The notes beneath the pieces are model-generated. The model ran no database searches. It worked only from the letters and a program-made list of their open reading frames with translations, and was not told where the DNA came from. DNA of 64,000 nucleotides from Gaiella sp. (GTDB lineage: Bacteria > Actinomycetota > Thermoleophilia > Gaiellales > Gaiellaceae): contig JAOSJZ010000001.1 in assembly GCA_027493885.1 (NCBI GenBank), positions 310,001 through 374,000 on the forward strand. The letters run 5' to 3'. Position 1 is the first letter of the stretch; every line of letters starts with the position of its first letter. Both the position numbers and the translations under genes were made by a program. Below are positions 2,301 to 9,416 of the stretch, one piece after another.

Positions 2301-2543
2301 TCAGCCGAGCCAGGCGAGGAGAAGGATCACGACCGCCGCGAGCGAGGCGAGCGCCACCGTCGCCACGTTGGCGATGAGGAGACGGCGCAGCGTGACGGAG
2401 GAGAGGCCCTGCGGCGCGCTGCCGGAGCCGTTCGCGGCCGGGTGGCCGACGGCCTCGCCCAGCCGGGCGATGATGTAGCCGTTGAGGCTCGTTCCCTCGC
2501 GCTCGGCCGCCTGCGCGAGCTCGCCGTGGAGCTCGGGAGGCAT
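2301..2543 (-). CDS. Small ribbon-helix-helix (HicB/Arc-type) protein with C-terminal membrane helix
   Basis: The 80 residues begin MPPELHGELAQAAEREGTS, followed by LNGYII, the helix-turn-helix half of an RHH fold as in HicB-type antitoxins. The last ~28 residues are a single hydrophobic helix, which is unusual for an antitoxin and would tether it to the membrane. The codons just upstream read RLLLR, the expected beta strand, but lie before the only ATG. The next in-frame stop upstream is about 80 bp away, so the true start may be a non-standard codon near 2567. It follows the sigma factor gene on the same strand at a distance of about 130 bp. Confidence 0.6.
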   Translation of the reverse strand: MPPELHGELAQAAEREGTSLNGYIIARLGEAVGHPAANGSGSAPQGLSSVTLRRLLIANVATVALASLAAVVILLLAWLG

Positions 2544-2675
2544 GCGAAGCAGCAGGCGGCCGCTCGGCGACGGCGCCCTCGCGCGGCTCGTCTCGGGAGC
2601 ATCCGGGGGAAGGTTGAGCGCTCACCCACTCGCGAGTGTACGGGCTCGTGCGGGTACGCACAATTCCGCGCCGCG

Positions 2676-3269
2676 TCACGCGACCTCGAGCCGCGCGCGC
2701 ATCTTCGCGAGCGACGCCGTCAGCACGCGCGAGACCTGGACCTGAGAGAGGCCGACCTCGGCGGCGATCGTCTGCTGGCTCCAGTCGCCGAAGAAGCGAA
2801 GGGCGACGACGCGCCGCTCGCGCGGGCTCAGCGCCCCGAACGCGACCCGCACGAGCTCCCGCGTCTCGCTCACGTCGACCTGCCCCCGCGCGTCGTCCTC
2901 GAGCGCGTCGTCGTCGAGCGCCTCCACGGGCGGCCGTCCCCCCCGCGATGCCTGCGCGTTGCGAACATGGCGGCGCAGCTCGCCCACGATCGTCGGGACC
3001 GCGTACGCGCCGAGGTCGCGGCCGCGCTCCTCACGGAAGCCGTCGACAGCCTTGATCAGCCCGATCGCGCCGACCTGCACGAGGTCGTCGATCGGCTCGG
3101 ACGGCCGCGAGAAGCGACGGGCGAGCGCATGGACGAGCGGGAGGTTCTCCTCGATCACGCGCGTGCGGGCGCCTCGATCGCCTCGGCGGTGATACGCGCA
3201 GAGCAGCGCCGCGCTGGCACTGCACCGTGCCTCGTTCCGTCGTCCCCGATCGCCCGACCGATCCACCAT
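2676..3269 (-). CDS. SigB/SigF-type RNA polymerase sigma factor lacking region 3
   Basis: Region 2 is clear (residues ~40-103: ENLPLVHALARRF, DDLVQVGAIGLIKAVDGF, AYAVPTIVGELRRHVRN), and region 4 ends the protein (SPRERRVVALRFFGDWSQQT then EVGLSQVQVSRVL). At 197 residues it is ~60 short of SigB/SigF. The linker (~104-140) is acidic and shows no sigma-3 helices. The family directs general-stress or developmental promoters and is normally held by an anti-sigma factor, none of which is encoded here. ATG at 3269. The intergenic gap to the divergent secreted-protein gene is 101 bp and AT-richer than its surroundings. Confidence 0.85.
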   Translation of the reverse strand: MVDRSGDRGRRNEARCSASAALLCAYHRRGDRGARTRVIEENLPLVHALARRFSRPSEPIDDLVQVGAIGLIKAVDGFREERGRDLGAYAVPTIVGELRRHVRNAQASRGGRPPVEALDDDALEDDARGQVDVSETRELVRVAFGALSPRERRVVALRFFGDWSQQTIAAEVGLSQVQVSRVLTASLAKMRARLEVA

Positions 3270-3370: not shown

Positions 3371-5104
3371 ATGACTCCTCTCTCACGCGCGCGAGTCGCG
3401 ACGTGCTTCGCAGCGGTTGCCGTGGTTGGCGGCTCGGAGGCCCTCTTCGCGTCGTCCGCACGCGCCGACGACGGCATCTCGGCGACGTCGCCGAGCAGCT
3501 CACTCGCCCCTGTCGTGCCCGGCGACGACGTCGGCGCGATCCTCGAGGCCGTCCCCGCGCTCGACGACACGGCGGACGCCGGGCTCGCCGCGACGCCGGC
3601 CGGCGACACGGGCACGACCGCGGTCGAAGGCCCGACCGAGGCCGCAAGGACGGCGTCGCCCACGGCCGCCGGCACCTCAGAGGAGGGGCTCTCCACGCCG
3701 CCTCCTCCCCCGGCCGAGCCGACCGCCGTCGAGACGCCCGAGGGCGGCTTGCTCGCGTCCCCGCAGCCCGCTGTTGACGGCGATCAGCGCTCCGGTACGA
3801 CCGGTGCGGGGGACACCATGGCGAGCGCAGCGGAGACGACGGATACCGCAGCTCCCAGCGGCGATACCAGCGCCGATACCGGGTCGACCGGCGACGACGA
3901 CGAGACCGGGGCGACCGCGCCTCCCCCGGCGCTGCAGTCGTCCCCGAGCAACGTCAACGTCAGCGTCCGGATCGGCAGCCCGGGCGATACGGGCCCGGTG
4001 ACGCAGGTGAACCTGGCCGCGCTCGCCCCGGCCGGCGCGACCGATGCAGTATCACCGACCGGCGATCCGCCCGCCCCCGGCGGTGCCCGCGGCGCCGGGT
4101 CGGTCACTCCTTCCGCAGCTGGGATCGGGCCGCAGCCCTCCGCGGACGCCGGCTCGGGAACATGGGCCTGGCAGTGGGACTGCCTTTCGGTACCCGATTT
4201 CACCGCGATATCGGACAGTGGATCAGGAACGGGATACATCCCGGTGAATTGGACGTGGATCTGGAACTGCGGAGACAATCCCGGACAGTATCAGGGAGCA
4301 ACTCATTCGCAGTATCGTCCTTCGAACGTCAACGTCTCGATTCGGATCTCGAGCCCCGGGGCCGACGGGCCCGTGACGCAGTCGAACGTCGCTGTCGCGG
4401 TCGTCGCCGGCGTCGGCGCGTCCAGCGGCTCGGTGGAGGCGATCGCGCCGCAGACCGCGCCGCCGAGGACTCCCGGTCTCCCGTCGCCTCCGCCCCCGAA
4501 CCTTGCCGCGATCACGGCGGCCGTCGCAGCTCCCCTCGCAGGCGTCCTCTCGCCCGCGGTCGCGGCTGCCGCACCCGTCACCGAGCAGAGGGCGGCAGTC
4601 GCCGTCCTCCCGGCCCTCCCGTCCTCGATCGACGAGCAGCTCGAGATCCGTTTCGTCCCCGCACCTGCCGGAAGCTCGATCCTCGCGGCTCTCTCGGCCC
4701 CCGCGCTCCGTCGGCCCATGCCGGGCCGCGCGAGGCCCGCGACGGCGATCGGCCCGATCGCGGAGGTCGGAGCGGCCATGCCGCGGCCCGCGCCCGTCGC
4801 CCTGACGTCGGGGGAGGCGTCGGCGCGTGGGGACGCGGGCGCGGCCCGGCCCGGCGGCGGCCGCGTGCGCGACGGACAACGTCCGCGGTGGCACGCACCG
4901 GCTCCGCAGCCTGCCCCGGAGCCGGCGCCGTCGGCCGCGAGCGCGGCGCCGGCGGCGGGGGGCGGCTCCTCGAGCGGCGGGATCCCGATCTTCCTCGCAC
5001 TTCCCTTCCTGGCCGCGATGCTCGACCTGGCCAGGCGCGTCGTGCTGGACGGCACGGCGCTGCCCTCCGGGCACCGCAGCCGCATGCCCGACGACCCCGG
5101 CTAG
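3371..5104 (+). CDS. Exported Pro/Ala-rich protein with two SPG repeats and C-terminal membrane anchor
   Basis: 577 residues that I do not recognise as a named family. Residues 1-33 form a signal peptide ending SSARADDG. The next ~150 residues are Thr/Ala/Pro-rich linker. Two copies of a motif N-V-N-V-S-[VI]-R-I-x-SPG-x2-GPV-TQ-x-N occur at about 191-213 and 316-338. Between them are two aromatic motifs ending in cysteine, WAWQWDC and WTWIWNC. A long Pro/Ala tail leads to a hydrophobic segment (IPIFLALPFLAAML) and a basic end, so the C-terminus is probably in the membrane. The SPG motif recurs five times in the next gene. ATG 3371 is 7-8 nt after a TAGATG/ATAGAT -10. Confidence 0.75.
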   Translation: MTPLSRARVATCFAAVAVVGGSEALFASSARADDGISATSPSSSLAPVVPGDDVGAILEAVPALDDTADAGLAATPAGDTGTTAVEGPTEAARTASPTAAGTSEEGLSTPPPPPAEPTAVETPEGGLLASPQPAVDGDQRSGTTGAGDTMASAAETTDTAAPSGDTSADTGSTGDDDETGATAPPPALQSSPSNVNVSVRIGSPGDTGPVTQVNLAALAPAGATDAVSPTGDPPAPGGARGAGSVTPSAAGIGPQPSADAGSGTWAWQWDCLSVPDFTAISDSGSGTGYIPVNWTWIWNCGDNPGQYQGATHSQYRPSNVNVSIRISSPGADGPVTQSNVAVAVVAGVGASSGSVEAIAPQTAPPRTPGLPSPPPPNLAAITAAVAAPLAGVLSPAVAAAAPVTEQRAAVAVLPALPSSIDEQLEIRFVPAPAGSSILAALSAPALRRPMPGRARPATAIGPIAEVGAAMPRPAPVALTSGEASARGDAGAARPGGGRVRDGQRPRWHAPAPQPAPEPAPSAASAAPAAGGGSSSGGIPIFLALPFLAAMLDLARRVVLDGTALPSGHRSRMPDDPG

Positions 5105-5175
5105 CGCTCCTTCCGCGTCGATGCGATTCGCGGGGCGCCGGCCCCGCTCGACCCAAGGGAAGGAGCAACATCCGC

Positions 5176-6522
5176 ATGAAACGCATGACGACACTCCTCG
5201 GGGCGCTCGTCGTCGCGCTGGTGTTCGGCGCGGGGCAGGCGATCGCCTCCGAGGGAGGAGGAGACGCGGCGCAGACCGCGGGCCAGGCTGCCGCGAGCGG
5301 CCAGACGGCCGGCGGCGAGAGCGGCGCCTACCAGCTGGGGCCGTCGAACCACGCGAGCTCGATTCGCGTCCTGAGCCCCGGCGACGACGGCAGCGTCTCG
5401 CAGTCGAACACGACGACCGCGGGCGCCCTCGCCGCGAACGGCAATGCGACGAGCCAGGACACCACGCAGTCGCAGCTGGGTGGGACGGGCTCCGACCAGA
5501 CGCAGGTCGCCGGTCAGGCGGCGAAGAGCGAGCAGGATGCAGACGCCGACGCGACGGCGGTGCAGCTCGCACCGAGCAACCAGGTCGGATCCATCCGCGT
5601 TCTGAGCCCAGGTGACAACGGCAACGTGATGCAGTCGAACGAGGCGACCGCCGGCGCGGCCGCCCTGAACGGCAACGAGACGCAGCAGACGACCGACCAG
5701 TTGCAGGGCGGTGGCGGCTACGGGTCCGACCAGACCCAGATCGCCGGACAGGCCGCCGGGAGCGACCAGACGGCCGATGCCGACGCGACGGCGGTACAGC
5801 TGAAGCCGTCCAACTCGGCGTCGTCGATCCGGGTGCTGAGCCCGGGCGACGACGGTAACGTCTCGCAGACGAACGCGGCGACCGCCATCGGCATCGCCGG
5901 GAACGGCAACTCGACGGATCAGTCCCTCGGCCAGTCGCAGACGGGCGGTGGGTACGGATCCGACCAGACGCAGGTCGCCGGCCAGGAGGCCTCGAACCAC
6001 CAGGACGCCGACGCGGATGCGACGGCGGTACAGCTCGCGCCGTCGAACACGGCATCGTCGATCCGGGTGCTGAGCCCGGGCGACGACGGCGACGTCTCGC
6101 AGCGGAACAGTGCCACCGCTGTGGCGGCGGCGCTGAACCTGAACACGACCGGTCAGTCGCTCGTCCAGTCACAGGCGGGTCGCGGAACGGGTGGCACCGT
6201 GCTTCAGGTGGCGGGACAGGGCGCCTGGAACCGGCAGAGTGCCTCTGCGGGGGCGGCGTCGCTCCAGCTCGGCGCGTCGAGCGAGACCGCCCCCATCCGG
6301 GTCGGCAGCCCGGGCGGCGGCGGCTCGGTACGGCAGTCGAACGACGTCGCGGCGCTCGCCGTGGCGCTCAACCTCAACGAGACCTGCCAAGCCCTGATGC
6401 AGAGGCAGGCGGGCAGCGGCTCCGACCAGCTGCAGGTCGCGGGCCAGGGCTCGTGGGACGACCAGCGTGGAGGCGCATGGGCCCACGCGATCCAGGGAGG
6501 GATGCCGAAGAAGAAGCGCTAG
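5176..6522 (+). CDS. Exported protein of five ~78-residue Gln/Asn/Ala repeats, curlin- or solenoid-like
   Basis: Start ATG 5176 has a GGAAGGAG ribosome site and opens with a signal peptide (MKRMTTLLGALVVALVFGAG, cut near AIASE). The remaining ~420 residues are five tandem units of about 78 residues. Each contains PSN-x4-SIRVLSPGDDG-x-V-x-QSN, then an alternating stretch (A-x-A-x-N-x-N-x-T-x-Q-x3-Q-x-Q), then SDQTQVAGQAA and ADADATAVQLA. SPG motifs fall near residues 56, 133, 211, 289 and 366. Units 4-5 diverge and the end is basic (GGMPKKKR). Regular Q/N spacing with small residues resembles curlin and beta-solenoid repeats, so a surface fibre is plausible but inferred. A strong hairpin follows at 6534. 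Confidence 0.8.
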   Translation: MKRMTTLLGALVVALVFGAGQAIASEGGGDAAQTAGQAAASGQTAGGESGAYQLGPSNHASSIRVLSPGDDGSVSQSNTTTAGALAANGNATSQDTTQSQLGGTGSDQTQVAGQAAKSEQDADADATAVQLAPSNQVGSIRVLSPGDNGNVMQSNEATAGAAALNGNETQQTTDQLQGGGGYGSDQTQIAGQAAGSDQTADADATAVQLKPSNSASSIRVLSPGDDGNVSQTNAATAIGIAGNGNSTDQSLGQSQTGGGYGSDQTQVAGQEASNHQDADADATAVQLAPSNTASSIRVLSPGDDGDVSQRNSATAVAAALNLNTTGQSLVQSQAGRGTGGTVLQVAGQGAWNRQSASAGAASLQLGASSETAPIRVGSPGGGGSVRQSNDVAALAVALNLNETCQALMQRQAGSGSDQLQVAGQGSWDDQRGGAWAHAIQGGMPKKKR

Positions 6523-6631: not shown

Positions 6632-7304
6632 GTGCCTACGTGGACGTCGTCTCTGCGGCCCGGGCGCGAATCGGTCGTCGCCGGCGCCTGCTTGGCGCTG
6701 CTCGCCTGGCCGTCGGCGGCAGCGGCGGCCGGCGGGACGCCGATGCCGGAACCGGACGACCCGCCCGTCTCCGCGACCGCGCCGACCGCGACGGCGTCCG
6801 CCGTCTCCGGCTCGACCTCCGTCACGTCACCCAGCCGGCGCCGCGCGGTGTCGGCGCAGCCGGTCCCGACGCCGGACGCGCCACTCGCCACGGGCTCGAC
6901 GTCGACCGTGGCGGCGAGGCAGGCGGTGTCGACGCCGCAGCCCGACGCGTCGCCGGCGCGGGCCACACAGACCGTGCCGTCGCGACCACCGGCCGGTAAA
7001 GCAGCGGCGCGTGAGCCCGCGCCGGTGCCTGCCAGCGCGAAGCCGGCTCGCGCCCGGCCCGGGAGGGCGGCAGGCGCGCCCACCCCCGCGCCGGCGAAGA
7101 AGCATCCCGCCCCGCCCCTCGGCGGACGAGCGCCCCCGGGACGCGGTCCGGCTCGGGCTTCCGGTAGGGGCGCTCGCGGCGGGGCGCCCGGACGGGGATG
7201 CGAGCCGCGCTCTGCTCCTCGTCGCAGCCTGCCTCTTCGCCGTCGCCGCGGGAGGGAGCACGCTCCTCGGGGCCGCTGCCCGAAGCGCCGCGAGGCGGGC
7301 GTGA
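6632..7304 (+). CDS. Exported Ala/Pro-rich membrane-anchored protein, frame interrupted
   Basis: Starts at GTG 6632 (alternative 6629) five bases after GGAGGG. A signal peptide (ESVVAGACLALLAWPSAAAAA) leads to a Ser/Thr/Pro/Ala linker. The first frame turns Arg-rich near 7115, while the frame shifted by one base encodes a good membrane segment (ALLLVAACLFAVAAGGSTLL) and basic end stopping at 7304, where TGA overlaps the next GTG as GTGA. One extra C in the CCCC run at 7115-7118 would explain this. Without that correction, this frame and the next gene form one 660-residue open frame. Layout (signal, linker, C-terminal helix) is like the protein at 3371. Function is unknown. Confidence 0.55.
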
Positions 7305-8626
7305 GGACCGTTCGGGCGGTGTGCGTCGTGGCCGCCCTGGCGGCTGGATGCGCCGCCCTCCCAGGCGCGGCGGCAGCGCTCGACCCGCCCGTCGCAAGCT
7401 GTAACGGCGGCGGCTGCGGCGGTTGGTTCAGGTCGGCAGTCGCCGTCGCGTGGTCATACAACTCGAGTGGAGTCACGGGCACAACCGGTTGCGGGGCGGC
7501 GAGCGTCTCGGACGACACCGGCGGCGCGACCTTCACGTGCACCGTCAACTACGGCGGCTCGTTCGTCGGCAGCAGCGTCACGGTTCGCAAGGACTCCACG
7601 CCGCCCGGAGTCACCGGCTCGGCGGCACGGGGACCCGACTCGAACGGCTGGTACACGAGCCCCGTCTCGTTCGGCTTCAAGGGGGAGGACGGCGCCTCCG
7701 GGGTCGCGTCGTGCACGTCCGGCACCTACGGCGGGCCCGACAGCGGCTCCGCGGCCGCCACCGGGTCGTGCACGGACAACGCCGGCAACACGGGGTCGGC
7801 CACGCTCACGTTCAAGTACGACGCGACACCGCCGACCGTCGTCGGCGTTCCCTCGCGTCAGCCGGACGCAAACGGATGGTACAACCACCCGGTCGACGTC
7901 ACCTTCCGGGGCAACGACGGGGGCTCCGGGGTCATCGAGTGCTCGCCGGCGGTGCGCTACGCGGGCCCGGATGCGAGCCCGGCCAAGCTCGTCGGGCAGT
8001 GCCGGGACGCCGCCGGGCACCTGAGCGCGCCGACGACGGTCGATCTCCGCTACGACGCGTCCCCGCCCGCACGCCCGAACGTCACCTGGGTGCACCGAGG
8101 ACGCTCGATCGCGCTCTCGTGGACGCGGGGCAAGGACGTCGTGCGGGCGAAGGTCGTCCGGGCACCGGGACCGAAGCGTGCGAAGCCGGGCATTGTCTAC
8201 CAGGGCAAGGCCCGGAGGCTCGTCGATAGGAGGATCCGGCCGGGCACGCGGTACTGGTACCAGGTCGTGCTGATCGACCGGGCCGGAAACGAGGCAGCGA
8301 AGACGATCGGCCTGCGGCCCGCGACCGGCATCTACGTACCGGCCGAGGGCTCGATCGTCGGCAAGCCCCCGCTCGTCCAGTGGTCGCCCGTCGCGAAGGC
8401 ACGGTTCTACAACCTCCAGCTCTGGCGCGGGAACCTGAAGCTCCTGACCACATGGGTGACACACCCGAGGGTGGCGCTGCGGGGACAGTGGTCGTTCAGG
8501 GGGCAGCGGCACTCGCTGGCGAACGGCTCGTACCGGCTCTACGTCTGGCCCGCGTTCGGGACACGGCGCAACCCGCGCTACGGGAAGCTCCTCGACCAGG
8601 TCTCGTTCGTCGTCAGGCTGCAGTGA
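7301..8626 (+). CDS. Secreted protein with Ig-like modules and a fibronectin-like domain
   Basis: About 441 residues from GTG 7301, with a signal peptide (VCVVAALAAGCAALPGAAAA). Then come repeats with the pattern TPP-x-V-x-G, PD-x-NGWY, PV-x-F-x-G-D-G-x-SGV-x-C, GPD and C-x-D-x-AGN at about residues 80-165 and 165-250. Each has paired cysteines. These Ig/bacterial-adhesion-like modules are common in secreted proteins of this class. Residues ~255-340 resemble a fibronectin type III fold (SIALSWTRG, TRYWYQVVLIDRAGNEA). The C-terminal ~90 residues (FYNLQLWRGN, YRLYVWPAF) are another beta domain. A surface-binding role is inferred. It is probably translationally coupled to the preceding gene. Confidence 0.75.
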   Translation: MRTVRAVCVVAALAAGCAALPGAAAALDPPVASCNGGGCGGWFRSAVAVAWSYNSSGVTGTTGCGAASVSDDTGGATFTCTVNYGGSFVGSSVTVRKDSTPPGVTGSAARGPDSNGWYTSPVSFGFKGEDGASGVASCTSGTYGGPDSGSAAATGSCTDNAGNTGSATLTFKYDATPPTVVGVPSRQPDANGWYNHPVDVTFRGNDGGSGVIECSPAVRYAGPDASPAKLVGQCRDAAGHLSAPTTVDLRYDASPPARPNVTWVHRGRSIALSWTRGKDVVRAKVVRAPGPKRAKPGIVYQGKARRLVDRRIRPGTRYWYQVVLIDRAGNEAAKTIGLRPATGIYVPAEGSIVGKPPLVQWSPVAKARFYNLQLWRGNLKLLTTWVTHPRVALRGQWSFRGQRHSLANGSYRLYVWPAFGTRRNPRYGKLLDQVSFVVRLQ

Positions 8627-8738: not shown

Positions 8739-9416
8739 ATGACTCCGAACGCCGTTCTCCTCGCCGAGCACGAGCCCGGGTCGAGGGAGTACCTCGAGCG
8801 GCAGCTTCGCGACGACGGGTTCACCGTGTTCGGGGCGGCCTGGACCGCGCGGGCGCTCGACCTCGCCGAGAGCGTCTCGCCCGACCTCGTCATCGCCGGC
8901 GAGCCCGATCTGTGTCGCAGGCTCCGGGCGGGAGAGCCTGGGCGACGCTGGAATCGGAACGTGCCGGTGATCGTCCTCACCGAGCCCGGCGCCGACCCTG
9001 CCGTGCGCGTCCGCGCGCTCGAGAGCGGGGCGGACGACGTCGTTCCGCGCGACGTGTACCTCGAGCTGCTCGCGCGCGTCAGGGCGCTGCTGCGGCGCGC
9101 CCTGCTCGGGCAGGCCGACGTCGTCGAGGCCGGGCCGCTCGTCGTCGACCACCGCGCGCGTCAGGTGCGCGTCGGGGGAGGCGGCCGTGCGCCTCGCGGG
9201 GCGCGAGTTCGAGCTCGCGGCGAAGCTCGCGAGCGACCCGCGGCGCGTCTTCACGAAGGCGGAGCTCCTCCGCGACGTCTGGGGATCCGCGCCGCCGGGA
9301 TCCGTACCCGTACCGTCGACTCGCACGCTTCACGTCTGCGCCGGAAGCTCGAGGCGGCAGGCGCCCGCGACGTCGTCGTGAACGAGTGGGGCGTCGGCTA
9401 TCGGCTGTTGCTGTGA
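8739..9416 (+). CDS. OmpR/PhoB-type response regulator with atypical receiver, frame interrupted twice
   Basis: ATG 8739 follows a TAGCCT -10 by 10 nt. Residues ~1-115 are a receiver fold (VPVIVLTEPGA, ALESGADDVVPRD, ELLARVRALLRR), but the usual phospho-aspartate strand reads PDLVIAGEP (no Asp), the acidic pocket is AEHE and the conserved Lys is Arg. The winged-helix part is split. An extra G in 9174-9178 moves the frame to LAGREFELAAKLASDPRRVF and TKAELLRDVWG, and a missing base near 9286 returns it to RTRTVDSHASRLRRKLEAAG and VVVNEWGVGYRLLL. Corrected, it is a normal ~225-residue regulator. No partner kinase is adjacent. Confidence 0.7.
   Translation: MTPNAVLLAEHEPGSREYLERQLRDDGFTVFGAAWTARALDLAESVSPDLVIAGEPDLCRRLRAGEPGRRWNRNVPVIVLTEPGADPAVRVRALESGADDVVPRDVYLELLARVRALLRRALLGQADVVEAGPLVVDHRARQVRVGGGGRAPRGARVRARGEARERPAARLHEGGAPPRRLGIRAAGIRTRTVDSHASRLRRKLEAAGARDVVVNEWGVGYRLLL

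Follow-up and report, generated by a model that had tools for sequence, protein, structure and literature searches.

Chaplins are secreted, amyloid-type surface proteins of actinobacteria that occur in wall-anchored and free forms, and chaplin amyloids are used by Actinobacteria on aerial hyphae. The structure of curli consists of stacked imperfect repeats with Asn/Gln ladders, and the curli subunit R15.5, which exposes the same strand at both ends, polymerises (PMC10192328). In FapC, large imperfect repeats each form one cross-beta layer held by conserved Asn/Gln residues (PMC12392863), while the PEP-CTERM/EpsH system represents an exopolysaccharide-linked form of protein sorting (PMC1569441). 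Here, we describe a locus in a 64,000-nucleotide stretch of contig JAOSJZ010000001.1 from Gaiella sp. (class Thermoleophilia), hereafter the window, in which two adjacent genes encode exported proteins that share a repeat unit: P0001, the anchor or candidate minor subunit (3371..5104, + strand), and P0002, the predicted fibre subunit (5176..6522, + strand). Searches of the open literature turned up no surface fibre of such kind for Thermoleophilia. We consider it probable, at roughly 0.58, that the locus produces a secreted cross-beta matrix fibre that is curli-like but non-homologous to curli and has a membrane-anchored, nucleating minor subunit.

Comparison with Described Systems

A curli-like pair of anchor and subunit was suggested in the original prediction, made from the sequence of the window. 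The two genes do co-occur in relatives, models of the repeat show a regular fold and one relative is sortase-tagged, but neither a curlin repeat, nor CsgG, nor a significant fold match in the PDB accompanies them. The resemblance to curli CsgA/CsgB lies in secreted repeats that, according to the models, may stack in two-strand layers with Gln/Asn ladders, in a major subunit paired with a separate minor subunit, and in chains of which some end in a half repeat. Unlike in curli, the unit has 76 residues rather than ~23 and its modelled strands 24-30 residues, the minor subunit carries a membrane helix, and the host is an actinobacterium. The curlin repeat PF07012 has no match in P0002, in the segments of its relatives or in the window's genome, and CsgG is likewise missing from that genome (92% complete), the E. 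coli control being positive in both searches. A BLASTP comparison of P0002 with E. coli CsgA produced short Gly/Gln matches only (E-value 0.02 for a single comparison) and was set aside. Judged by sequence, the system is not curli; by analogy it may work like curli, with stacked layers, Asn/Gln ladders, a separate minor subunit and half-repeat ends.

Like the chaplins, these are actinobacterial secreted surface proteins of putative amyloid type, but the repeat, the size and the gene neighbourhood all differ and Pfam scans of the family gave no match to the chaplin domain; the system is not a chaplin. Nor is it FapC, which shares large imperfect repeats with conserved Asn/Gln and one layer per repeat (PMC12392863) but folds five short strands into a Greek key, where two very long strands are modelled here, and which gave no sequence match in the PDB search. 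PEP-CTERM/EpsH offers a parallel in the C-terminal homology domain on exported proteins and in the tie to exopolysaccharide genes (PMC1569441); in the present system, the tail after the helix instead ends in -[RDPK]PG, and no sorting enzyme was identified.

The Repeat Unit

Two copies of a motif of ~20 residues, S-[VI]-R-[VI]-x-SPG-x2-G-x-V-x-Q-x-N, had been reported in the protein at 3371 and five in the protein at 5176. Both open reading frames (ORFs) are present and stop-free, and matches of a unit profile confirm the copies. The length has to be revised: when the profile was built from the five P0002 units and iterated across eleven genomes, a unit of 76 residues emerged, of which this SPG/QSN stretch is the centre. 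Across 100 aligned units from 20 ORFs in 11 genomes, the centre has on one side the strictly alternating stretch QxxxQxAx[TN]xQxAxAxAxAxQ and on the other VxQxNx[SA]xAxAxAxNxNxTxQxAxQxQ, again strictly alternating. One parity holds the conserved columns in each stretch, with a mean excess of ~2 bits (permutation p ~2e-5 and ~1e-5), and from genus to genus the Gln/Asn columns, which stand at fixed alternate positions, hardly vary. The 100 units together with this alternate-column conservation show that the repeat is not due to chance, and one-parity conservation in both stretches is characteristic of long strands that bury one of their faces.

If strand A and strand C face each other in each layer, as the proposed register has it, their inward residues match in class (Gln/Asn with Gln/Asn, small with small) in 10 of the 11 pairs that an antiparallel, face-to-face arrangement produces, a value reached by 0.5% of shuffles; the best direct, parallel register gives 8 of 11. 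The antiparallel register was chosen after inspection of the columns and the count is thus a consistency check and not a prediction.

In agreement with the earlier view that the protein at 5176 is almost all repeats, P0002 comprises a signal peptide and 5.4 tandem units. Its five full units (5257..6414, + strand), each with two long alternating strands predicted from the unit profile, AlphaFold and column parity, lie singly at 5257-5484, 5488-5715, 5722-5949, 5956-6180 and 6190-6414. They are followed by a C-terminal half unit containing strand A only (6418..6498, + strand; unit profile), and several homologues likewise end in a half unit. A ribosome-site-like sequence, GGAAGGAG, stands just upstream of the gene.

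That the motif belongs to no named family was borne out, since Pfam, NCBIfam, the PDB, plasmids and phages contain no credible relative of the unit. Matches of fibres to EB1_binding, Agd3_C and similar Pfam families are scattered over members and functionally unrelated, and were rejected as composition artefacts. An ice-binding reading was also dropped, because the outward positions are variable and often acidic and the unit alignment contains no Thr array. In one fibre subfamily (L028, L031, L033, L079, L080, L085), C-x-x-G-C-G-G is conserved at every unit junction, where it may form a layer-edge disulfide.

The Anchor Gene

P0001 contains a signal peptide, a low-complexity stretch, W/C motifs, two partial units, a C-terminal membrane helix and a -DPG end. 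The partial units (3902..4021, unit columns 15-54, and 4295..4399, unit columns 21-55; both + strand, unit profile, E ~2e-8 or better) keep mainly the unit centre. Two motifs rich in Trp and with a Cys, WAWQWDC (4163..4183, + strand) and NWTWIWNC (4247..4270, + strand), are of a type that recurs in several anchors. The signal peptides proposed for both proteins are predicted to be Sec-type, and the membrane helix said to end one of them corresponds to a hydrophobic helix found by hydropathy scan at residues 535-553 of the P0001 ORF (4967..5023, + strand). A -[RDPK]PG terminus is common among the anchors; among 405 called genes of these loci, 10 end in PG and 7 of the 10 are anchors. Just upstream of several same-genus anchors (L028, L079, L080, L083) there is an inverted-repeat-like sequence, GGGGGGAGC-AAGACCC...GGGGTCTA, with no Rfam match.

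Predicted Structure

AlphaFold modelled P0002, from an alignment with 31 segments of relatives, at a predicted local distance difference test (pLDDT) score of 72.7 and a predicted template modelling (pTM) score of 0.61. Within each unit of the model, the strands span 24, 9 and 28 residues (unit columns 4-27, 30-38 and 47-74) and coincide with the alternating columns. For a subfamily that shares ~33% identity with P0002, a model built on its own alignment reached pLDDT 82.5 and pTM 0.77 with strands of ~28 + 5 + 30 residues. Both models have a regular repeat fold, and although drawn from different subfamilies they agree in predicting two strands of 24-30 residues in each unit, with ladders of Ala, Gln and Asn; our confidence in a beta-layer fold of the unit is moderate. 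In Foldseek searches, FapC stood within the first ten rows (E 1.0 and 0.61, TM-score at most 0.13), and matches to viral structures were rejected at TM-scores of at most ~0.2.

Distribution and Locus Organization

The unit profile detects the unit in 25 of 399 Thermoleophilia genomes and, in an even sample of the phylum, in 3 of 397, two of which are Thermoleophilia. A closer two-unit alignment gave relatives in six named loci, from metagenome-assembled genomes labelled Thermoleophilia, Thermoleophilaceae, Solirubrobacteraceae and Candidatus Gaiellasilicea; a genome-contig search with P0002 alone found no match, and neither did plasmid and phage searches. The two genes co-occur in relatives: 14 genomes pair a long all-repeat gene with a short, unit-bearing one that encodes a C-terminal membrane helix and is located on the same strand, either immediately upstream or no more than ~1.5 kb away, and in G056 the pair has a unit-less anchor. 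The locus order is a divergent HicB-type membrane protein and sigma factor, then the anchor, the fibre, a Pro-rich protein and an immunoglobulin-like (Ig-like) protein. Both the conserved regulator pair and the 76-residue unit go beyond the original prediction. A hydrophobic, signal-peptide-like stretch is present at the N terminus of almost every fibre and anchor, a few falling below the scan threshold. Confidence in the repeats, the export signals and the conserved locus, as read from these sequences, is high.

One relative, G028, has a single fibre gene with eight units followed by LPFTG, a membrane helix and a basic tail, a sorting signal that supports surface display. Two sortases are present in the window's genome, and LPXTG occurs in neither P0001 nor P0002. 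Two genomes (G260 and G291; L088, L089) carry a further fibre locus at a distance of ~75 kb, around which no regulator was detected.

The Regulator Pair

Divergent from the anchor gene lies a sigma-70 family factor (2676..3269, - strand; Pfam Sigma70_r2 5.8e-18, Sigma70_r4 1.1e-11), which holds an equivalent position in most relatives. It is shorter than its relatives, where region 3 is present; Pfam did not find region 3 in the window's factor. The neighbouring ORF (2301..2621, - strand) combines a HicB-type ribbon-helix-helix domain (Pfam HicB 2.2e-9, Arc 4.9e-5) with one C-terminal membrane helix and encodes a candidate membrane regulator, conserved in 13 loci. This ORF of the window has no ATG, GTG or TTG ahead of the conserved domain, and relatives start ~30 residues earlier. 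In several Solirubrobacteraceae-type loci, sigma factor, HicB-type domain and membrane helix occur in one open frame (L077 4427-5953, L087 5165-6130, L090 9518-10522, L092 1546-2877), and these fused frames possibly encode a membrane-tethered sigma factor. Sigma control of the locus and membrane tethering of the sigma factor are both plausible.

The HicB-type membrane protein (E<1e-24) is found in 18 genomes, and the fibre is present in 14 of them versus 11 of 381 others (Fisher p 5e-16, with related genomes counted as independent and phylogeny uncorrected). In three fibre-less genomes (G026, G047, G058), the sigma/HicB-membrane pair (L096, L097, L098) lies beside exopolysaccharide genes (GT4, Polysacc_synt, Wzz, Wzy_C) for a glycosyltransferase, a flippase, Wzz and Wzy-type proteins, while the contig of the fourth such genome, G043, is too short to show the neighbourhood. 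This position of the regulator suggests that the fibre is tied to an extracellular matrix programme.

Proposed Mechanism and Its Alternatives

We infer polymerisation, nucleation, sigma control and a matrix role, and the locus of this Gram-positive-type soil actinobacterium would accordingly supply a secreted matrix fibre. P0002 would pass the membrane via Sec and fold as a flat two-sheet beta-arch solenoid with one layer per 76-residue unit, in which strand A (24-28 residues), a short strand through NxNxxVxV, the SPGxxG turn and, opposite A, strand C (28-30 residues) follow one another. The core of a layer would consist of Ala/Ser/Thr between Gln/Asn ladders, and the open beta edges at both ends of P0002 would allow subunits to stack into ribbons, as in curli. 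Held in the membrane by its C-terminal helix, P0001 may play a CsgB-like role, its one or two partial units providing an edge for docking or nucleation. The locus would be switched on by the divergent sigma factor, which the HicB-type membrane protein would keep at the membrane or control otherwise. More tentatively, and at somewhat less than even odds, the system could constitute a new, non-homologous class of functional amyloid in Thermoleophilia, characterized by giant-layer cross-beta ribbons ~9 nm wide (28 residues per strand), a membrane-bound nucleator with a C-terminal -RPG tag, and a membrane-tethered sigma switch that in other lineages adjoins exopolysaccharide genes.

Several observations weigh against a secreted cross-beta fibre of this kind. 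Model confidence is middling, with weaker results in three of the five runs per job; strands of 28 residues without a break are unusual, and low-complexity repeats with a repeat alignment can drive AlphaFold to over-regular strands. Foldseek searches of both models against the PDB returned no chain at E<=0.001; the top-ranked chain was curli CsgA in each case (E 0.11 and 0.02), yet at a TM-score of ~0.05 to the query its rank is a hint at most and no real match. Six other genomes of the window's genus lack the unit, so that the locus is patchy and accessory, and the genome counts treat related genomes as independent. Not every fibre gene has an anchor gene in its vicinity, and the gene upstream of the G056 fibre is without the unit, though it keeps a W-rich motif and a C-terminal -RPG. 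The regulator is not exclusive to the fibre, as 4 of its 18 genomes lack the latter, and a search for promoter patterns (SigF/SigB-type and similar) upstream of 15 anchors matched in none.

Among the alternatives, P0002 might be a monomeric beta-solenoid that acts as a rigid stalk or an adhesin on the surface, attached to the membrane through P0001 or to the wall in the sortase form, with no polymer. The sortase-tagged relative with its own eight units fits this, and the anchors of G011 and G215, with 5-7 unit matches and a membrane helix, could each serve as a stalk in a single chain. Most fibre proteins, however, lack an anchor of their own while a separate anchor gene is kept nearby in 14 genomes, and the half-unit ends expose the same strand at both ends, as in the polymerising curli subunit R15.5; we regard a stalk as unlikely. 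Still less probable is a disordered or loosely ordered, Ala/Gln/Ser/Gly-rich filler of the wall or matrix, with the modelled strands as artefacts of a repetitive alignment. The composition of P0002 (A 17%, G 15%, Q 11%, S 11%, few large hydrophobics), the scattered matches to unrelated Pfam families, which resemble composition bias, and the uneven model confidence would suit such a filler, but it would have no need of near-invariant Gln/Asn at fixed alternate positions across genera. A chaplin-like coat of spores, aerial cells or another dormant form under a stress-type sigma factor is very improbable, for although the genes adjoin a sigma factor that has regions 2 and 4 (in relatives also 3) and chaplin amyloids do cover actinobacterial aerial hyphae, the family has no chaplin match in Pfam scans, no sporulation genes were recognised in the loci listed, and the regulator recurs at exopolysaccharide genes instead.

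Downstream Genes

The two further exported proteins reported downstream differ in how they stand. P0004 (7301..8626, + strand), an exported Ig-like repeat protein, reads through, and 72 of the 399 Thermoleophilia genomes carry its conserved C-terminal domain (8330-8617). P0003 (6632..7306, + strand), Pro/Ala-rich, appears frameshifted near 7110, close to a C-rich run within 7100-7200, with its signal peptide in one frame and its membrane tail in another; the change is either an indel error or a sign of a broken gene. A response-regulator ORF at 8739-9416 of the window apparently contains two frame changes within its DNA-binding part, at about 9180-9320, and a similar gene of L030 (3947-4606) reads through. 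Rfam found nothing in eight loci or in the first 14 kb of the window.

Significance

The P0001/P0002 locus is a candidate for a new type of bacterial matrix fibre. Thermoleophilia is a class known mostly from soil metagenomes, for which a conserved locus with its own regulator provides a concrete target. If the cross-beta reading with strands of ~28 residues is true, the range of functional amyloid layers would be extended well past curli and FapC, and the locus would point to a sigma switch common to protein and polysaccharide matrix.
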